From Candidatus Kapaibacterium sp. (GTDB lineage Bacteria > Bacteroidota > Ignavibacteria > Kapaibacteriales > UBA2268), in NCBI GenBank assembly GCA_013414795.1, contig CP058732.1:2021950-2085949 (forward strand): 64,000 nt of DNA, written 5' to 3'. The translations under genes were made by a program, and so were the position numbers. Position 1 is the first letter of the stretch. Each line of letters starts with the position of its first letter. The notes beneath the pieces were generated by a model. It searched no databases, was not told the origin of the DNA, and saw nothing but the letters and a program-made list of their open reading frames with translations. Below are positions 51,496 to 57,887 of this stretch, piece by piece.

Positions 51496-53442
51496 ATGAG
51501 AAAAATTCTATTACTTATTGCTTTGAGTCTTACATTTCTTTGCAGTCCATTATACTCCCAAACGCTAATTTGGCAACAAACCGACTTTTCACTAACTGGA
51601 AATGTCAATCTGGTGCACGTTGGTCCAAACGGGTTGATTTACGCTGGTAGTTTCAATACGGGAGTATACGTAACCAGCGATAAAGGACAAAGTTGGACAA
51701 CACGTAACAATGGTCTATCCAATTTGCAAGTTTTTGCTTTTCTCAACGTAGCAGACACAATGTTCGTTGGAACACTCGACGGAGTTTATAAATCGACTAA
51801 TTATGGAATGAATTGGGAACCTTCCAACGAAGGATTATTCGATAAATACATCAACGCATTAGCAATCACCAAAAACCAAAAGATGCTTGTTGGAACACTG
51901 TACAATGGCTTGTTCATATCGACTAATTTTGGCAGATCCTGGACACAGATGGATAATGAATTCAAAAATAAAAGCGTGAATTGCATTCTTGCAAAAAACG
52001 ATGGTTTCGTCCTTGTTGGTACAACTTCGGGACTTTACCGTGCTACACAAATGTTTGACTTCTGGGGCAAAGTCGACGCTGACCTAAAAAATAACACAAA
52101 CATAAACACCATCGCTGTTGATTCAACGGGTAATATTTACCTCGGAACAAACAATGGCTACATTTACAAATCTATTAATAACGGTGTCAGTTGGACCGAG
52201 GTTTATCAAATTGCTAATACCCCAATTTATAAAATTGTAGTCTCCCCCCAAAATGTTGTTTACGCAGCAACATATGGCAAAGGAGTGTTAAGAAGCAAAA
52301 ACGCTGGTGCAACTTGGGAAGAAGTAAACGATGGTTTATACAATCAATATACAACTGGAATTATCGCACTCTCAAATCGTGAACTATTCGTTTCCACCTG
52401 GGGAAATGGAGTGTTCTACGGAAAAGAATACGAAATTTCAACTTCGGTCGAAGGCGAATATTGCACTGGGAATCAAATCTCAATAGATTATTACGTAACC
52501 ATCCAGTTCAACTCCGACAATTACTTCATTGCACAACTCTCTGACAATAGTGGCTCCTTCAAAAATCCCATTGAATTAGGGAGAGTTCAAAGTACAACAA
52601 GCGGAACCATTACTGGCACAATACCAAACAATGTTTCAACAGGAATACTTTATCGTGTTAGGGTAATTTCAACAAGCCCTCCACTGATTGGCGCCGATAA
52701 TAGGAAGAACATAAGAATTTATAAAGGTTTAAACCCAGTAATTTCTGGAAAAGCCTCGGTTTGTGAAAATGATATTGAAACATATTCAAGTCCAGTCAAA
52801 ATTGGTGTGATTTCGACTTGGAGTGTAACAAACGGGGAAATCTTAAACATCGATGAAACAACCAACACAATTACAATTCAATGGAAAAATGTTGGAATTG
52901 GCGAAGTTAAATTGAACCAAGTTTTAGAAAGCGGAAAGTGCGCCGATTCGAACAAAATAGTGGTAACCATTCATCCCAAACCAGAGAAGCCAGTAATCAC
53001 AAGAAGAGGATACACACTTTACTCCAGTTCAAAAACTGGAAATCAATGGTTTCTGTTCGATCAACCTATACCAAACGCTACTGCGGACTCATTAAACGTG
53101 GAAAATCCTGGTCTGTACTATGTTCAAGTTACAAATGAATTTGGTTGCAAATCCGAAATGTCCGACCCATTCGATTTCTATTACAACGCAGTAGTTGATG
53201 AAAACGAAACCTTTGCGATTTACCCCAATCCTGTATCGACAAAGTTGTTCTTAATTATGCCTGAAAATGTCGAAGAAATCTCAATTACAGATCTCTTCGG
53301 GAGAAATTTGATGAATATTAAACTGGATAATAATACTACCAAGACCACTATTGATGTCTCTACCCTTTCGAATGGAACCTACTTCTTAATAGCCAAAACA
53401 ACCAAAGGTATAAACATTAAAAGATTTAACAAAATAAATTAA
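51496..53442 (+). CDS. T9SS cargo with BNR-type propeller
   Basis: 648 residues. Signal peptide 1 to about 21. Repeated BNR/Asp-box turns (SDKGQSWTT, STNYGMNWE, STNFGRSWT, SINNGVSWT, SKNAGATWE) lie in residues about 45-290, indicating a sortilin-like propeller. Residues about 310-550 are Ig/PKD-like sandwiches with Cys pairs. The C-terminus (about 571-648, FAIYPNPVSTKLF, LSNGTYFLIA) is a T9SS type A sorting domain. Co-transcribed with porD. Binding target unknown. Confidence 0.85.
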   Translation: MRKILLLIALSLTFLCSPLYSQTLIWQQTDFSLTGNVNLVHVGPNGLIYAGSFNTGVYVTSDKGQSWTTRNNGLSNLQVFAFLNVADTMFVGTLDGVYKSTNYGMNWEPSNEGLFDKYINALAITKNQKMLVGTLYNGLFISTNFGRSWTQMDNEFKNKSVNCILAKNDGFVLVGTTSGLYRATQMFDFWGKVDADLKNNTNINTIAVDSTGNIYLGTNNGYIYKSINNGVSWTEVYQIANTPIYKIVVSPQNVVYAATYGKGVLRSKNAGATWEEVNDGLYNQYTTGIIALSNRELFVSTWGNGVFYGKEYEISTSVEGEYCTGNQISIDYYVTIQFNSDNYFIAQLSDNSGSFKNPIELGRVQSTTSGTITGTIPNNVSTGILYRVRVISTSPPLIGADNRKNIRIYKGLNPVISGKASVCENDIETYSSPVKIGVISTWSVTNGEILNIDETTNTITIQWKNVGIGEVKLNQVLESGKCADSNKIVVTIHPKPEKPVITRRGYTLYSSSKTGNQWFLFDQPIPNATADSLNVENPGLYYVQVTNEFGCKSEMSDPFDFYYNAVVDENETFAIYPNPVSTKLFLIMPENVEEISITDLFGRNLMNIKLDNNTTKTTIDVSTLSNGTYFLIAKTTKGINIKRFNKIN

Positions 53443-53466
53443 ACTACCTTTTTGACAAAATAAAAA

Positions 53467-53495
53467 GAAGGAGGCAAAAGCCTCCTTCCATTTTT
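53467..53495. terminator. Bidirectional terminator
   Basis: GAAGGAGGC at 53467-53475 pairs perfectly with GCCTCCTTC at 53480-53488 around an AAAA loop, with T-rich sequence on both sides. Serves the porD operon and the facing rhodanese gene. Confidence 0.85.
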
Positions 53496-53515: not shown

Positions 53516-54523
53516 TTACTTTTCATAATCATAATTTTTGATTTCGCTTTCACTAAAAGCAGTCATTTTCTTTTCAACAAGTTTATCGTAAATCATCCCA
53601 TTTGCGCCAAAAAGTAAAGACTTTGCATCGTAACCAATCAAACGCAGATAGGCAACCAAAAAGGCGCTTGTTTGTCCAGTGTAACAATAAACGACAATGG
53701 TTTTATTTGTTGGCAAGGTCAAAAGGTCAACTTCGGTTTTCAAAGAACTCTTTGGAGTATATTGTACTGCACCTGGAATATGCCCAGGATCGAGGTATTG
53801 TGATTCTGGCCAATAGTTTACAATGTAATACTTGTCCAAGTTTTGGAAAACTTGATCAGCAGTGATCGTTGCGGCGGCAAATTTTTCGGCAACCAATGTA
53901 TTCACTCTTGCTTCTAAAATCTCTTGTGCAGTCTTCTTTCCAGTGTTAATAACAGGATAAGTTCCTTTTGGGCCCTTGGGGTTTGCTTTAGTTTCAAATT
54001 GCGATGCATATTTGTTCCCATTGGCAATAACATCACGCCATTTCTTTGCAAAATCTGAATGCCACGAAGCCATTCCCCACTTCAATGAGTAAACATTTTT
54101 GTACCCCAAAATACGAGCCAGAGATGCATAGTACCCAGCAGTTTGCCCAGTATAACAAACAATTACGATCTTATCGTATTTAGAAGCATCAAGGGATTTG
54201 ATATGATTCAAGACATCAGTTTCTTGTAAATTTACAGCCGTACGAATGTGACCACTTGCAAAGTCTGCCGCTGAACGTATATCAATAATGTATGCCTTAC
54301 CAGCCTCTAAATCAGCCTTCAATGTTGCGGCATCGACTATGCTTGGTAAATCAGTATTTACATAGTACTTTCCATAAGGATTTTCAGACGATTCGAGATA
54401 CTTAATTAAAGTCTCCGCTTCGTTAATCGCTGGTTCGTTTGTTTTATCCTCAGAACAAGACCAGATAAAAAATGCAAGGAATAGTAACAAAGCCAATTGT
54501 TTTAAGTTCCATTTCTTCATCAT
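53516..54523 (-). CDS. Double-rhodanese lipoprotein (sulfurtransferase)
   Basis: 335 residues. Lipobox FIWSC gives Cys23. Two rhodanese domains follow, about 60-165 and 215-325, each with an intact active loop: CYTGQTA with Cys123 and CYTGQTS with Cys280. Rhodaneses carry sulfane sulfur on that Cys, from thiosulfate or polysulfide to a thiol or cyanide. Many tandem rhodaneses keep only one Cys; here both are kept. AAGGAGG lies seven bases before the first of two adjacent ATGs. It is 46 bases downstream of the multihaem cytochrome gene, so a joint role in sulfur-linked electron transfer in the envelope is a reasonable inference. Confidence 0.88.
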   Translation of the reverse strand: MMKKWNLKQLALLLFLAFFIWSCSEDKTNEPAINEAETLIKYLESSENPYGKYYVNTDLPSIVDAATLKADLEAGKAYIIDIRSAADFASGHIRTAVNLQETDVLNHIKSLDASKYDKIVIVCYTGQTAGYYASLARILGYKNVYSLKWGMASWHSDFAKKWRDVIANGNKYASQFETKANPKGPKGTYPVINTGKKTAQEILEARVNTLVAEKFAAATITADQVFQNLDKYYIVNYWPESQYLDPGHIPGAVQYTPKSSLKTEVDLLTLPTNKTIVVYCYTGQTSAFLVAYLRLIGYDAKSLLFGANGMIYDKLVEKKMTAFSESEIKNYDYEK

Positions 54524-54569
54524 TTTAAAACCTCCTTTTGTTTAACATAAATCAATTAATAAAATCAAA

Positions 54570-55910
54570 TTATTTAAACCAATCACTCGGCAAAGCCTTA
54601 TCAACAGTGATTTTCTTTGTTGCATTCTTTTCCCAATCGAGCAAATCCTTTTCAAAAAGATAGATATTTGTATTAATCAAAGTATCGCCTTGCTTTCTAA
54701 TATGGCAATTTGCATAACATTTCTCACCATCGGAAACCTTAGTAACATTTGTCCATCTTTGGATGTTATGCGGGGTTGCGTAATTATAAGTCGGTAAGGC
54801 ATCAAAATTTGGATACTGTGGAAGTCCATATTCAACCCAATTATCTGGGGCTGCAAGTGTTCTTCTTACAGTAACAAATTTATATTGCTTACGCACATCC
54901 TTCAAAGGATTTAAAGCAATCTTGAAATCCATATATGAAGGCACTCTTGCTCCAAGTCCGTGAATATGGCAACTACCACAATTGTTGTACTTTTGGGAAT
55001 GACACACATAGCAACTCAATGAATCAGAATGCATCAAATGGTATTTATTTTTGTCCTTAACATTTGGATGGCAAGTTTCGCATTTTGGCAATTTTTCGTA
55101 GGCATAACGATGCTCTGGAATGGTCCCGCTGCCGTGCATTTCACTACCCGTATGACAGGATGTACAAACCATACCCTTTGTTTGATGCACATCTGGTTTG
55201 GTTCCCGAGCCTATACCGAGAAAAGCATGCCCTCCCCTCGACGTATGGCACACGACACAAGTTTTAATCATATCGGGTGTTTTGACAAAATTATGACCAT
55301 TGGCTAAACCACCACCACCAGCGGTTGGTCGAATAACGTGGCATTCACCACAATTTGCGTGGCAAGTGGCACAATTCTTTTTGTAACCTTCCTTGTGCAT
55401 AGGAGAAAGTTTCTCGAAGTCTTTATAATTCGAATATCCGCTTCGAATGGCGACTTTTCGCATTTGCCCGTAACCATTGTGCAAACTTGAAGGAAAAGTA
55501 GAAACAATTTCCTCGTGACATTTCTTGCACTTCTGTTCAGCGGCAACGGATGGGTGCGAAATAAAGTCGCCAGAATGGGCTTGGTTTTTATCATCTGTTC
55601 CATCCACACCATTGTGGCAACCAGTACATCCTATTTTGTAGTGGGACGACTTCTTGAAACTCTCATAACCAACACCACCCATATAAACTCGGTCATACGG
55701 TTCATAGTGTGGGGCTTCGCCACCACAACCACCAGCAGGAAGAGTTGAGTCGGGTGTGTAGACCTTCATCAAATGCTCGTAATTTGTGTGGCAACCTTCG
55801 CACGAAGCAATACTTTTCTGGGGCTCAACAGTTGAGTCTTCTTTACATCCAAAGAACAACAGAACAAAACCAACAATTATTACCCTAAATAAATACAATT
55901 GCAATTTCAT
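54570..55910 (-). CDS. Multihaem c-type cytochrome lipoprotein
   Basis: 446 residues with lipobox FFGC (Cys22). Ten CXXCH haem sites begin at residues 37, 95, 128, 180, 187, 218, 249, 277, 300 and 311. An eleventh, CYANCH at 398-403, has the rarer CX3CH spacing and may or may not bind haem. Pairs such as CATCH..CGECH and the many extra His suggest bis-His packing as in multihaem electron carriers. Periplasmic or surface-facing electron transfer is expected. The family looks similar to c3-type/octahaem reductases in general layout, but no catalytic signature is recognised. Upstream of the double-rhodanese gene in the same operon. Confidence 0.88.
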   Translation of the reverse strand: MKLQLYLFRVIIVGFVLLFFGCKEDSTVEPQKSIASCEGCHTNYEHLMKVYTPDSTLPAGGCGGEAPHYEPYDRVYMGGVGYESFKKSSHYKIGCTGCHNGVDGTDDKNQAHSGDFISHPSVAAEQKCKKCHEEIVSTFPSSLHNGYGQMRKVAIRSGYSNYKDFEKLSPMHKEGYKKNCATCHANCGECHVIRPTAGGGGLANGHNFVKTPDMIKTCVVCHTSRGGHAFLGIGSGTKPDVHQTKGMVCTSCHTGSEMHGSGTIPEHRYAYEKLPKCETCHPNVKDKNKYHLMHSDSLSCYVCHSQKYNNCGSCHIHGLGARVPSYMDFKIALNPLKDVRKQYKFVTVRRTLAAPDNWVEYGLPQYPNFDALPTYNYATPHNIQRWTNVTKVSDGEKCYANCHIRKQGDTLINTNIYLFEKDLLDWEKNATKKITVDKALPSDWFK

Positions 55911-57359: not shown

Positions 57360-57887
57360 CTACAATCGAAAATGCAAACCAGCAAGAATCCCCAGGAATG
57401 TAGTATTTTCACTCTCGGTAAAAATAATTGTGTACTTCAAACTTCCTCTGAATTCCATATTTGGGGTAATTGGATATGCAATTCCAATTAATGGAACAAA
57501 ACCAAATTTTGTTTCACTATCAGATGAAGAGTAACTTAAGTAACTGGATTTCCAGGAGTTAAAAAACAAGAACGTTTCAGCTCCGATGTAAGGAATTAGA
57601 CCAGTGTTAGAAAACCGATAGTTTATACCGATGTTTAAAGGAATAGTATTAAAAGTATATTTAATACCGCTTTCTTCCTTACTAAAACTCCAATATCCAA
57701 TCGACCCAGTGAAAAGAATGTTTCTGTCCATAAAATAAGTAAAAACCCCGTTTAACCCAAAACCAGTATTAACTACATCTGCAAACTCTCCAGTAGGAAT
57801 TGCTAATCCGATATCCACTCCAAACATTATTGGAGATACAAACTTTTTGCTTTTTTGAGCATAAACATCAATTGAGAGCAAAAGCAA
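57360..57887 (-). CDS. Small outer-membrane barrel protein, start unresolved
   Basis: 175 residues if it begins at TTG 57887, but that start lies in the middle of a signal peptide. The frame is open further up and reads KKKLIVLTSVFCLLLLSIDVYAQ, a normal signal with its basic end at about 57918-57926. No ATG, GTG or TTG precedes it in frame; a CTG at 57903 or 57963 is possible. The mature part has barrel strands (FGVDIGLAIPTGEF, LNIGINYRFSNTG, LAGLHFRL). Third in the OmpA-VWA operon, so translational re-initiation after the upstream stop is possible, as is a sequence error. Confidence 0.6.
   Translation of the reverse strand: MLLLSIDVYAQKSKKFVSPIMFGVDIGLAIPTGEFADVVNTGFGLNGVFTYFMDRNILFTGSIGYWSFSKEESGIKYTFNTIPLNIGINYRFSNTGLIPYIGAETFLFFNSWKSSYLSYSSSDSETKFGFVPLIGIAYPITPNMEFRGSLKYTIIFTESENTTFLGILAGLHFRL

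Follow-up and report, generated by a model that had tools for sequence, protein, structure and literature searches.

The genomic window analyzed here, 64,000 nucleotides of a Candidatus Kapaibacterium genome (contig CP058732.1, positions 2,021,950 to 2,085,949), contains two adjacent genes that code for an undecahaem c-type cytochrome lipoprotein and a tandem-rhodanese lipoprotein. It was found that these two genes constitute a conserved two-gene module. The module may serve as a sulfane-sulfur relay at the cell surface that is linked to a multihaem electron path, a reading to which we give an even chance of being right, and such a relay would probably reduce polysulfide, elemental sulfur (S0) or thiosulfate. 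The strongest facts are the strict pairing of the genes, the invariant Cys residues and the GGCGG sequence of the cytochrome. To our knowledge, there is little understanding of electron exchange with forms of sulfur that are unable to pass into the cell, namely S0, polysulfide and mineral sulfur. The pair provides a concrete and testable candidate for extracellular sulfur exchange in Ignavibacteria, Kapabacteria and Bacteroidales, and could be used as a marker gene pair for metagenomes.

Conservation of the gene pair

Both proteins were searched for in 247 evenly sampled genomes of the phylum (E ≤ 1e-15 for the cytochrome, E ≤ 1e-30 for the rhodanese). The cytochrome was found in 13 genomes and the rhodanese in 15, and in all 13 cytochrome genomes, the window's own among them, the rhodanese was the next gene on the same strand. 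A scan of species genomes yielded 235 relatives of the cytochrome, of which the best 80 loci, labelled mostly as Ignavibacteria, Kapabacteria, Bacteroidales or other Bacteroidetes, were studied. The family names Melioribacteraceae and Prolixibacteraceae appeared on metagenome-assembled loci only. A same-strand rhodanese open reading frame (ORF) was observed downstream in 76 of these 80; at L107 and L108 the rhodanese ORF was cut by the contig end, at L106 and L124 the contig ended before a rhodanese could be called, and at L053 the rhodanese was split into two ORFs. The rhodanese was present at all 78 loci with testable downstream sequence. The original prediction had proposed conserved co-occurrence in other genomes as its check, and the pairing was kept in both samples. 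Distances among the cytochromes and among the rhodaneses were correlated (0.69 over 76 loci), and none of 500 permutations gave a value as high.

Rhodanese relatives were also observed apart from the cytochrome. G134 and G224 contained such relatives without a cytochrome, and G031 had a second rhodanese copy; in the class of G134 the cytochrome, which alone was scored, occurred in 1 of 395 evenly drawn genomes. Five relatives stood in tandem in G224 (L049, 6543-12158), and one was located at L050 (3272-4282) in G031. The four of these copies that were aligned, from the G224 tandem and G031, were missing the catalytic Cys in both domains, and are apparently inactive rhodanese-like lipoproteins. 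The two relatives in G134 (L048, 8336-10340 in reverse-complement coordinates), one of which had no second catalytic Cys, lay a few kb from YeeE-half and Psr-like matches.

Anatomy and invariant residues

As the original prediction had described, the cytochrome exhibited ten CXXCH motifs (at C37, 95, 128, 180, 187, 218, 249, 277, 300 and 311) and one CX3CH motif (at C398). When its residues were shuffled in 2000 trials, the mean number of CXXCH motifs was 0.08 and the maximum was 2. Pfam assigned Cytochrome_C7 to this protein (28.5 bits, cut-off 24.8). The partner matched Rhodanese (PF00581) over two stretches (107 bits, 6.5e-31), and its only Cys residues were 23, 123 and 280; the claim of a double rhodanese that keeps Cys123 and Cys280 was borne out in all 77 aligned sequences. 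Both proteins are predicted to be lipid-anchored, as had also been claimed, with the lipobox Cys found in every aligned cytochrome (81) and rhodanese (76). The two genes are encoded on the minus strand with a gap of 46 bp from the cytochrome to the rhodanese, and a terminator-like hairpin 3' of both showed a folding z of -5.8. The terminator pattern scan gave 3 sites against a mean of 2.4 in shuffles, so the support comes from the strength of this one hairpin and not from the count. Strand, gap and hairpin together suggest that the two genes are co-transcribed.

The cytochrome alignment comprised 81 sequences (the 80 loci plus the window), and the rhodanese alignment 77, one of them a fragment. 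All Cys and His residues of the eleven haem motifs were kept wherever aligned. Cys62 was the sole invariant Cys outside the lipid anchor and the haem motifs (81/81), and exactly one non-haem, non-lipid Cys was present in 63 of the 81 cytochromes. Its surroundings were GGCGG in 66 sequences, SSCGG in 6, SGCGG in 4, GGCSG in 2, AGCGG in 2 and PACGG in 1. According to excerpts of PMC6067878, GGCGG is the sulfur-binding sequence of SoxY. The cytochrome resembles SoxY in holding its Cys within this sequence, whereas the motif is C-terminal in SoxY and lies between haem motifs 1 and 2 in the cytochrome (Cys62 of 446 residues). This invariant Cys62 in GGCGG, together with the export-signal-like start and the conduit or sulfur-gene neighbours of some relatives described below, goes beyond the original prediction.

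Nine non-motif His residues were invariant and His90 was kept in 80 of the 81 sequences; weaker conservation was observed for His68 (73) and His119 (71). Met214 was invariant in a 13-sequence alignment and nearly so in a 72-sequence alignment. By simple arithmetic, eleven haems against ten well-kept distal His residues would allow one haem with a Cys, a Met or a further His as ligand, or with an open site.

Cellular location signals

A strict lipobox pattern was recognised in 57 of the 77 rhodaneses and 50 of the 81 cytochromes. At least two acidic residues at positions +2 to +6 were found in 52 of these 57 rhodaneses and 31 of these 50 cytochromes, compared with 14 of 55 other lipoproteins from the same flanks. 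The pooled comparison (83/107 versus 14/55) gave a Fisher p of 3e-10, which is generous because the sequences are related. The rhodanese family consensus was C-[SK]-K-D-[DE], with K at +3 in 29, D at +4 in 42 and D or E at +5 in 41 of the 57 sequences. This consensus fits the Bacteroidetes surface-export signal tested in Capnocytophaga, which is C-X-K-(D/E)2-X, or S followed by acidic residues, in excerpts of PMC5080379. The start of the window's rhodanese, C-SED, resembles the SDDFE type of the same excerpts, while the cytochrome start, C-KED, has K at +2, and the position within the signal is stated there to matter; both starts are near, and not identical to, the optimum. These N-terminal signals make surface exposure of the rhodanese likely and that of the cytochrome less certain.

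Proposed mechanism

In the favoured reading, the cytochrome and the rhodanese would form a dedicated sulfur-redox module that probably sits on the exterior of the outer membrane. Polysulfide, S0-derived species or thiosulfate would donate sulfane sulfur to the tandem rhodanese, where Cys123 and Cys280 would carry it in persulfide form before its transfer to the cytochrome, most plausibly to Cys62 in the SoxY-like GGCGG or to an adjacent haem. Electrons passing through the eleven haems would reduce this sulfur to sulfide or, in the reverse direction, electrons from sulfide would be passed to acceptors. The electrons might be supplied by periplasmic carriers or, in some relatives, by a neighbouring conduit-like cytochrome cluster. 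The reductive direction is somewhat favoured over the oxidative one.

A more self-contained arrangement is also conceivable, and we advance it only tentatively. The cytochrome itself might be a surface 'haem-wired sulfur carrier', in which sulfane sulfur delivered by the rhodanese would be held covalently on Cys62 and undergo redox reactions by the protein's own eleven haems. Because ten well-kept non-motif His residues stand against eleven haems, Cys62 is a possible haem ligand, and in such a carrier one haem may be ligated by Cys62 instead of His. If true, this would represent molybdenum-free respiration of solid or polymeric sulfur outside the cell.

Genes beside the pair in relatives

In 6 of the 13 genomes, the pair was preceded by a conduit-like cluster with genes for a 4-haem c554-like cytochrome, a 425-aa barrel-like protein, a 14-haem cytochrome and a lipoprotein-like cytochrome (5 to 28 CXXCH), with a PAS/sigma-54 regulator gene between the cluster and the pair. 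The 425-aa protein had no Pfam or NCBIfam match, and was taken for an outer-membrane barrel on visual inspection. A cluster of this type in the window's own genome was considered and rejected, as a search lacking a positive control gave no barrel-like gene and the 14-haem cytochrome gave only a 27-bit partial match.

A divergent Crp/Fnr-type gene adjoined the cytochrome in 49 of the 81 loci. The 48 proteins that were aligned showed conserved Cys near the N-terminus (in the example L058:9056-9751, the conserved residues are Cys 10, 17, 19, 149 and 165 in L058 numbering), and the regulator is possibly an iron-sulfur or persulfide sensor. A MarR-like family (as in L054) occurred in 9 of the 80 loci, in 6 of them directly upstream of the cytochrome. 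Crp-type or MarR-like genes beside the pair in many loci would also be consistent with a protective or sensory role, and rhodaneses are often tied to detoxification; the rhodanese would then detoxify extracellular cyanide or reactive sulfur and the cytochrome would merely recycle electrons, with no part in energy metabolism. We consider this role very improbable, because eleven haems kept in strict one-to-one pairing would be a high price for detoxification and the conduit-like cluster adjoins the pair in 6 of 13 genomes.

Sulfur genes were scanned for in flanks of up to 10 kb per locus, often shortened by contig ends. Octahaem tetrathionate reductase (OTR) was found in 3 of the 80 loci, Psr-like genes in 2 and YeeE-half genes in 4, together 5 of 80. 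At L054 and L055, a run of OTR, PhsC-like cytochrome b, YeeE and YeeE genes ended in the pair. PhsA/NrfD/YeeE-like genes at L104 were separated from the pair by the Crp-type gene, OTR lay ∼4 kb from the pair at L117, and Psr-like genes lay ∼7 kb away at L110.

Genome-level sulfur company

In the even sample, YeeE-half genes were observed in 10 of the 13 pair genomes versus 31 of the 234 others, OTR in 8 versus 26, and Psr-like genes in 7 versus 22. Any of the three was present in 12 of 13 pair genomes versus 46 of 234. At the genus level within the class (handles g1-g50 taken as the class), the figures were 11/12 and 18/38 (p = 0.008).

In the window's genome (2.66 Mb, one contig), sulfate adenylyltransferase (Sat), AprA and a member of the DsrC family scored over cut-off, and a DsrK-like protein scored below it. 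The genome also had a gene run that comprised a Psr-like gene (below cut-off with the PhsA model), an NrfD-like gene, two YeeE-half genes and a rhodanese-like gene. These genes lie near one another in L142 and L136 (G000:C1 ∼803-827 kb), a region whose content suggests a dissimilatory sulfur cluster. The Psr-like/YeeE/rhodanese-like arrangement resembles that given for 'Candidatus Thermonerobacter thiotrophicus' in excerpts of PMC6338057, where a MerR gene, psrABC, two sulfur-transport domains and a rhodanese are near DSR genes; the pair is not mentioned in these excerpts. This resemblance suggests that the window's genome is related to that lineage of Kapabacteria. An OTR candidate in the window's genome was rejected, being an 18.5-bit partial match inside a pentahaem gene (weak QrcA match) beside a QrcC/DsrO-like gene.

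Psr-like, YeeE, Apr/Sat and Dsr-type genes can work in either direction, and their presence in the window's genome would also suit an oxidative use of the pair. Sulfide or persulfide would then be oxidized at the surface, with Cys62 and the rhodanese carrying the sulfane product and the electrons passing inward or to an external acceptor. The anatomy would be identical, the SoxY-type motif is shared, and 5 of the 80 loci carry 'SulCav' isolate names. Nevertheless, OTR and Psr are usually reductive, and the divergent Crp/Fnr-type gene, with its conserved Cys, hints at anaerobic control, so that oxidative use is regarded as unlikely.

Family assignment and structure

No NCBIfam model exceeded its cut-off for the cytochrome or the rhodanese, and Pfam gave generic domains only; among these models, then, no named family covered either protein, in line with what had been proposed. 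Assignment to a named NCBIfam cytochrome (matches to ExtM, ExtN, ExtO and CctA) was rejected, the best being NF040943 ExtM at 23.5 bits against a cut-off of 800. The cytochrome did not match TIGR04315, the OTR model, at E ≤ 1.

The structural model of the cytochrome had a predicted local distance difference test (pLDDT) score of 84.8 and a predicted template modelling (pTM) score of 0.82; in the block containing the GGCGG segment (mature residues 31-50), pLDDT was ∼70, versus 89-95 in the adjoining blocks. OcwA, Mtr, octahaem nitrite reductase and HAO were among the folds compared. VIA-align gave Z ≤ 4.0, and OcwA (6i5b), the Mtr complex (6r2q), the multihaem 4qo5, the undecahaem 6qvm and nitrite reductases were within 1 of each other. 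For the rhodanese model (pLDDT 96), Foldseek found tandem rhodaneses (best 6mxv, 2.5e-10), with low whole-chain template modelling (TM) scores of 0.28-0.34. By its fold and active-site Cys loop, the partner is assigned to the rhodanese superfamily, and sulfurtransferase activity is predicted for it.

Comparison with known systems

In the Wolinella system, the rhodanese-type carrier Sud delivers sulfur from polysulfide to Psr, an inner-membrane molybdenum enzyme that acts as a reductase outside the cytoplasm; the partner of the tandem rhodanese described here is, in contrast, a multihaem lipoprotein. OTR is likewise a multihaem sulfur enzyme, and its genes lie near the pair in L054, L055 and L117.

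Excerpts of PMC6148476 describe Geobacter sulfurreducens extHIJKL, which encodes a rhodanese lipoprotein and a periplasmic pentahaem cytochrome, contributes to Fe(III)/Mn(IV) reduction, and includes extI, the deletion of which impairs selenite/tellurite reduction. It is similar to the pair in that a rhodanese lipoprotein is encoded with a multihaem cytochrome, and it belongs to an outer-membrane electron path. However, ExtH, which was compared by description only, comes with a 21-transmembrane-segment outer-membrane protein and the pentahaem ExtK, whereas the pair is a two-gene unit encoding a tandem rhodanese and an undecahaem cytochrome that is itself a predicted lipoprotein. Adjacent large-barrel and pentahaem genes of the extHIJKL type were not found at the window locus, where the neighbours are a nucleoside transporter and a BNR protein with a type IX secretion system (T9SS) tail; the closest Pfam-supported barrel in the window is the OMP_b-brl protein at 57360-57887, past the divergent transporter.

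The extHIJKL precedent raises the alternative that the pair serves extracellular electron transfer in general, with metal oxides or selenium/tellurium oxyanions as acceptors; the cytochrome would then be the terminal surface reductase and the rhodanese would bind chalcogen intermediates or protect the haems. The conduit-like cluster in 6 of 13 genomes would fit such a function, as would the fact that ExtM is the best, although very weak, NCBIfam match of the cytochrome. On the other hand, the haem count and gene set are unlike those of ExtK and ExtHIJKL, a search of the window's genome for the barrel-like protein, run without a positive control, yielded no homologue, and the two invariant catalytic Cys residues plus GGCGG suggest sulfur itself. 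Elsewhere in the window's genome, and not linked to the pair, an ExtM-like protein is encoded (L141:8611-10506, ∼G000:C1 2402610-2404505; 631 aa, 11 CXXCH, 260.7 bits, cut-off 800). On balance, metal or chalcogen reduction appears improbable as the function of the pair.

In Dethiobacter alkaliphilus clusters 5-T and 4, a rhodanese-domain gene occurs with an octahaem cytochrome, and both clusters are discussed for sulfur/thiosulfate reduction in excerpts of PMC10376724; compared by description only, they differ from the pair in that the cytochrome is SirA/MccA-like and octahaem. The original prediction that no described system has exactly this pair was partly wrong, because extHIJKL and the Dethiobacter clusters are near precedents. 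In the narrower sense, nothing recognisable as an 11-haem GGCGG lipoprotein paired with a tandem rhodanese appeared among the matches listed from open-licence literature, and excerpts of PMC12545173 and PMC4288042 do not mention the pair.

Weighing of the proposed sulfur relay

The idea of a sulfane-sulfur carrier coupled to an electron conduit, as originally put forward, was upheld in part. The invariant Cys residues, GGCGG, the export-signal-like start and some neighbours fit it, but conduit and sulfur-enzyme neighbours were found in a minority of loci. Several further observations weigh against the relay. Its weakest link is the direct sulfur context, which is seen at few loci: OTR or Psr-like genes and their like were in the flanks of only 5 of 80, and most loci had just a regulator nearby. 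In the window's own genome the pair is ∼1.25 Mb from the sulfur cluster with no sulfur gene adjoining it, and no homologue of the conduit's barrel-like protein was found there, with the limit on that search given above. Kinship inflates all genome-level co-occurrence figures, and one pair genome (G228) lacked all three sulfur markers. When the 46 loci that carry a Crp gene were considered, the correlations of distances were 0.34 for cytochrome and rhodanese, 0.31 for cytochrome and Crp, and 0.10 for rhodanese and Crp; as the first two are nearly equal, the co-evolution test hardly separates the rhodanese from the Crp gene. Against solved structures the cytochrome model gave no clear match (Foldseek E ≥ 0.31), and no new fold is claimed. 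The GGCGG segment could be a loop bearing a haem ligand. The support consists of anatomy, invariant residues, pairing and genomic company.

Features and neighbours of the locus

The coordinates of the features are given in Table 1.

Table 1. Features of the cytochrome-rhodanese locus in window coordinates
Feature	Coordinates	Strand	Evidence
Undecahaem c-type cytochrome lipoprotein, 446 aa, 10 CXXCH + 1 CX3CH	54570..55910	minus	ORF, motifs, Pfam
Tandem-rhodanese lipoprotein, 335 aa	53516..54523	minus	ORF, Pfam, alignment, AlphaFold2 model (pLDDT 96)
Cytochrome lipobox Cys22 (predicted), mature start C-KED	55845..55847	minus	Cys in 81/81 aligned cytochromes
GGCGG around Cys62 (non-haem)	55719..55733	minus	Cys 81/81; exact GGCGG 66/81
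CX3CH haem motif C398-YANC-H403	54702..54719	minus	C398 81/81; C402 and H403 80/80, one truncated locus
Rhodanese domain 1, residues 64-155; catalytic Cys123 at 54155-54157	54059..54334	minus	Pfam; Cys123 77/77
Rhodanese domain 2, ∼residues 213-305; catalytic Cys280 at 53684-53686	53609..53887	minus	Second Pfam and NCBIfam stretch; Cys280 77/77
Rhodanese lipobox Cys23 (predicted), mature start C-SED	54455..54457	minus	Cys in 76/76 aligned
Intrinsic-terminator-like hairpin 3' of both genes; pattern on both strands	53466..53489	minus	Terminator scan, folding

Judged by Pfam, the neighbours in the window appear unrelated to the pair. Upstream are the divergent nucleoside transporter and then the OMP_b-brl protein (175 aa), and downstream the T9SS-tailed BNR protein is encoded convergently, with a DUF4835 protein in addition. 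The BNR-repeat protein (51496-53442, 648 aa), with its type IX secretion C-terminal tail, faces the pair across the hairpin, whose pattern is compatible with a terminator in either direction.

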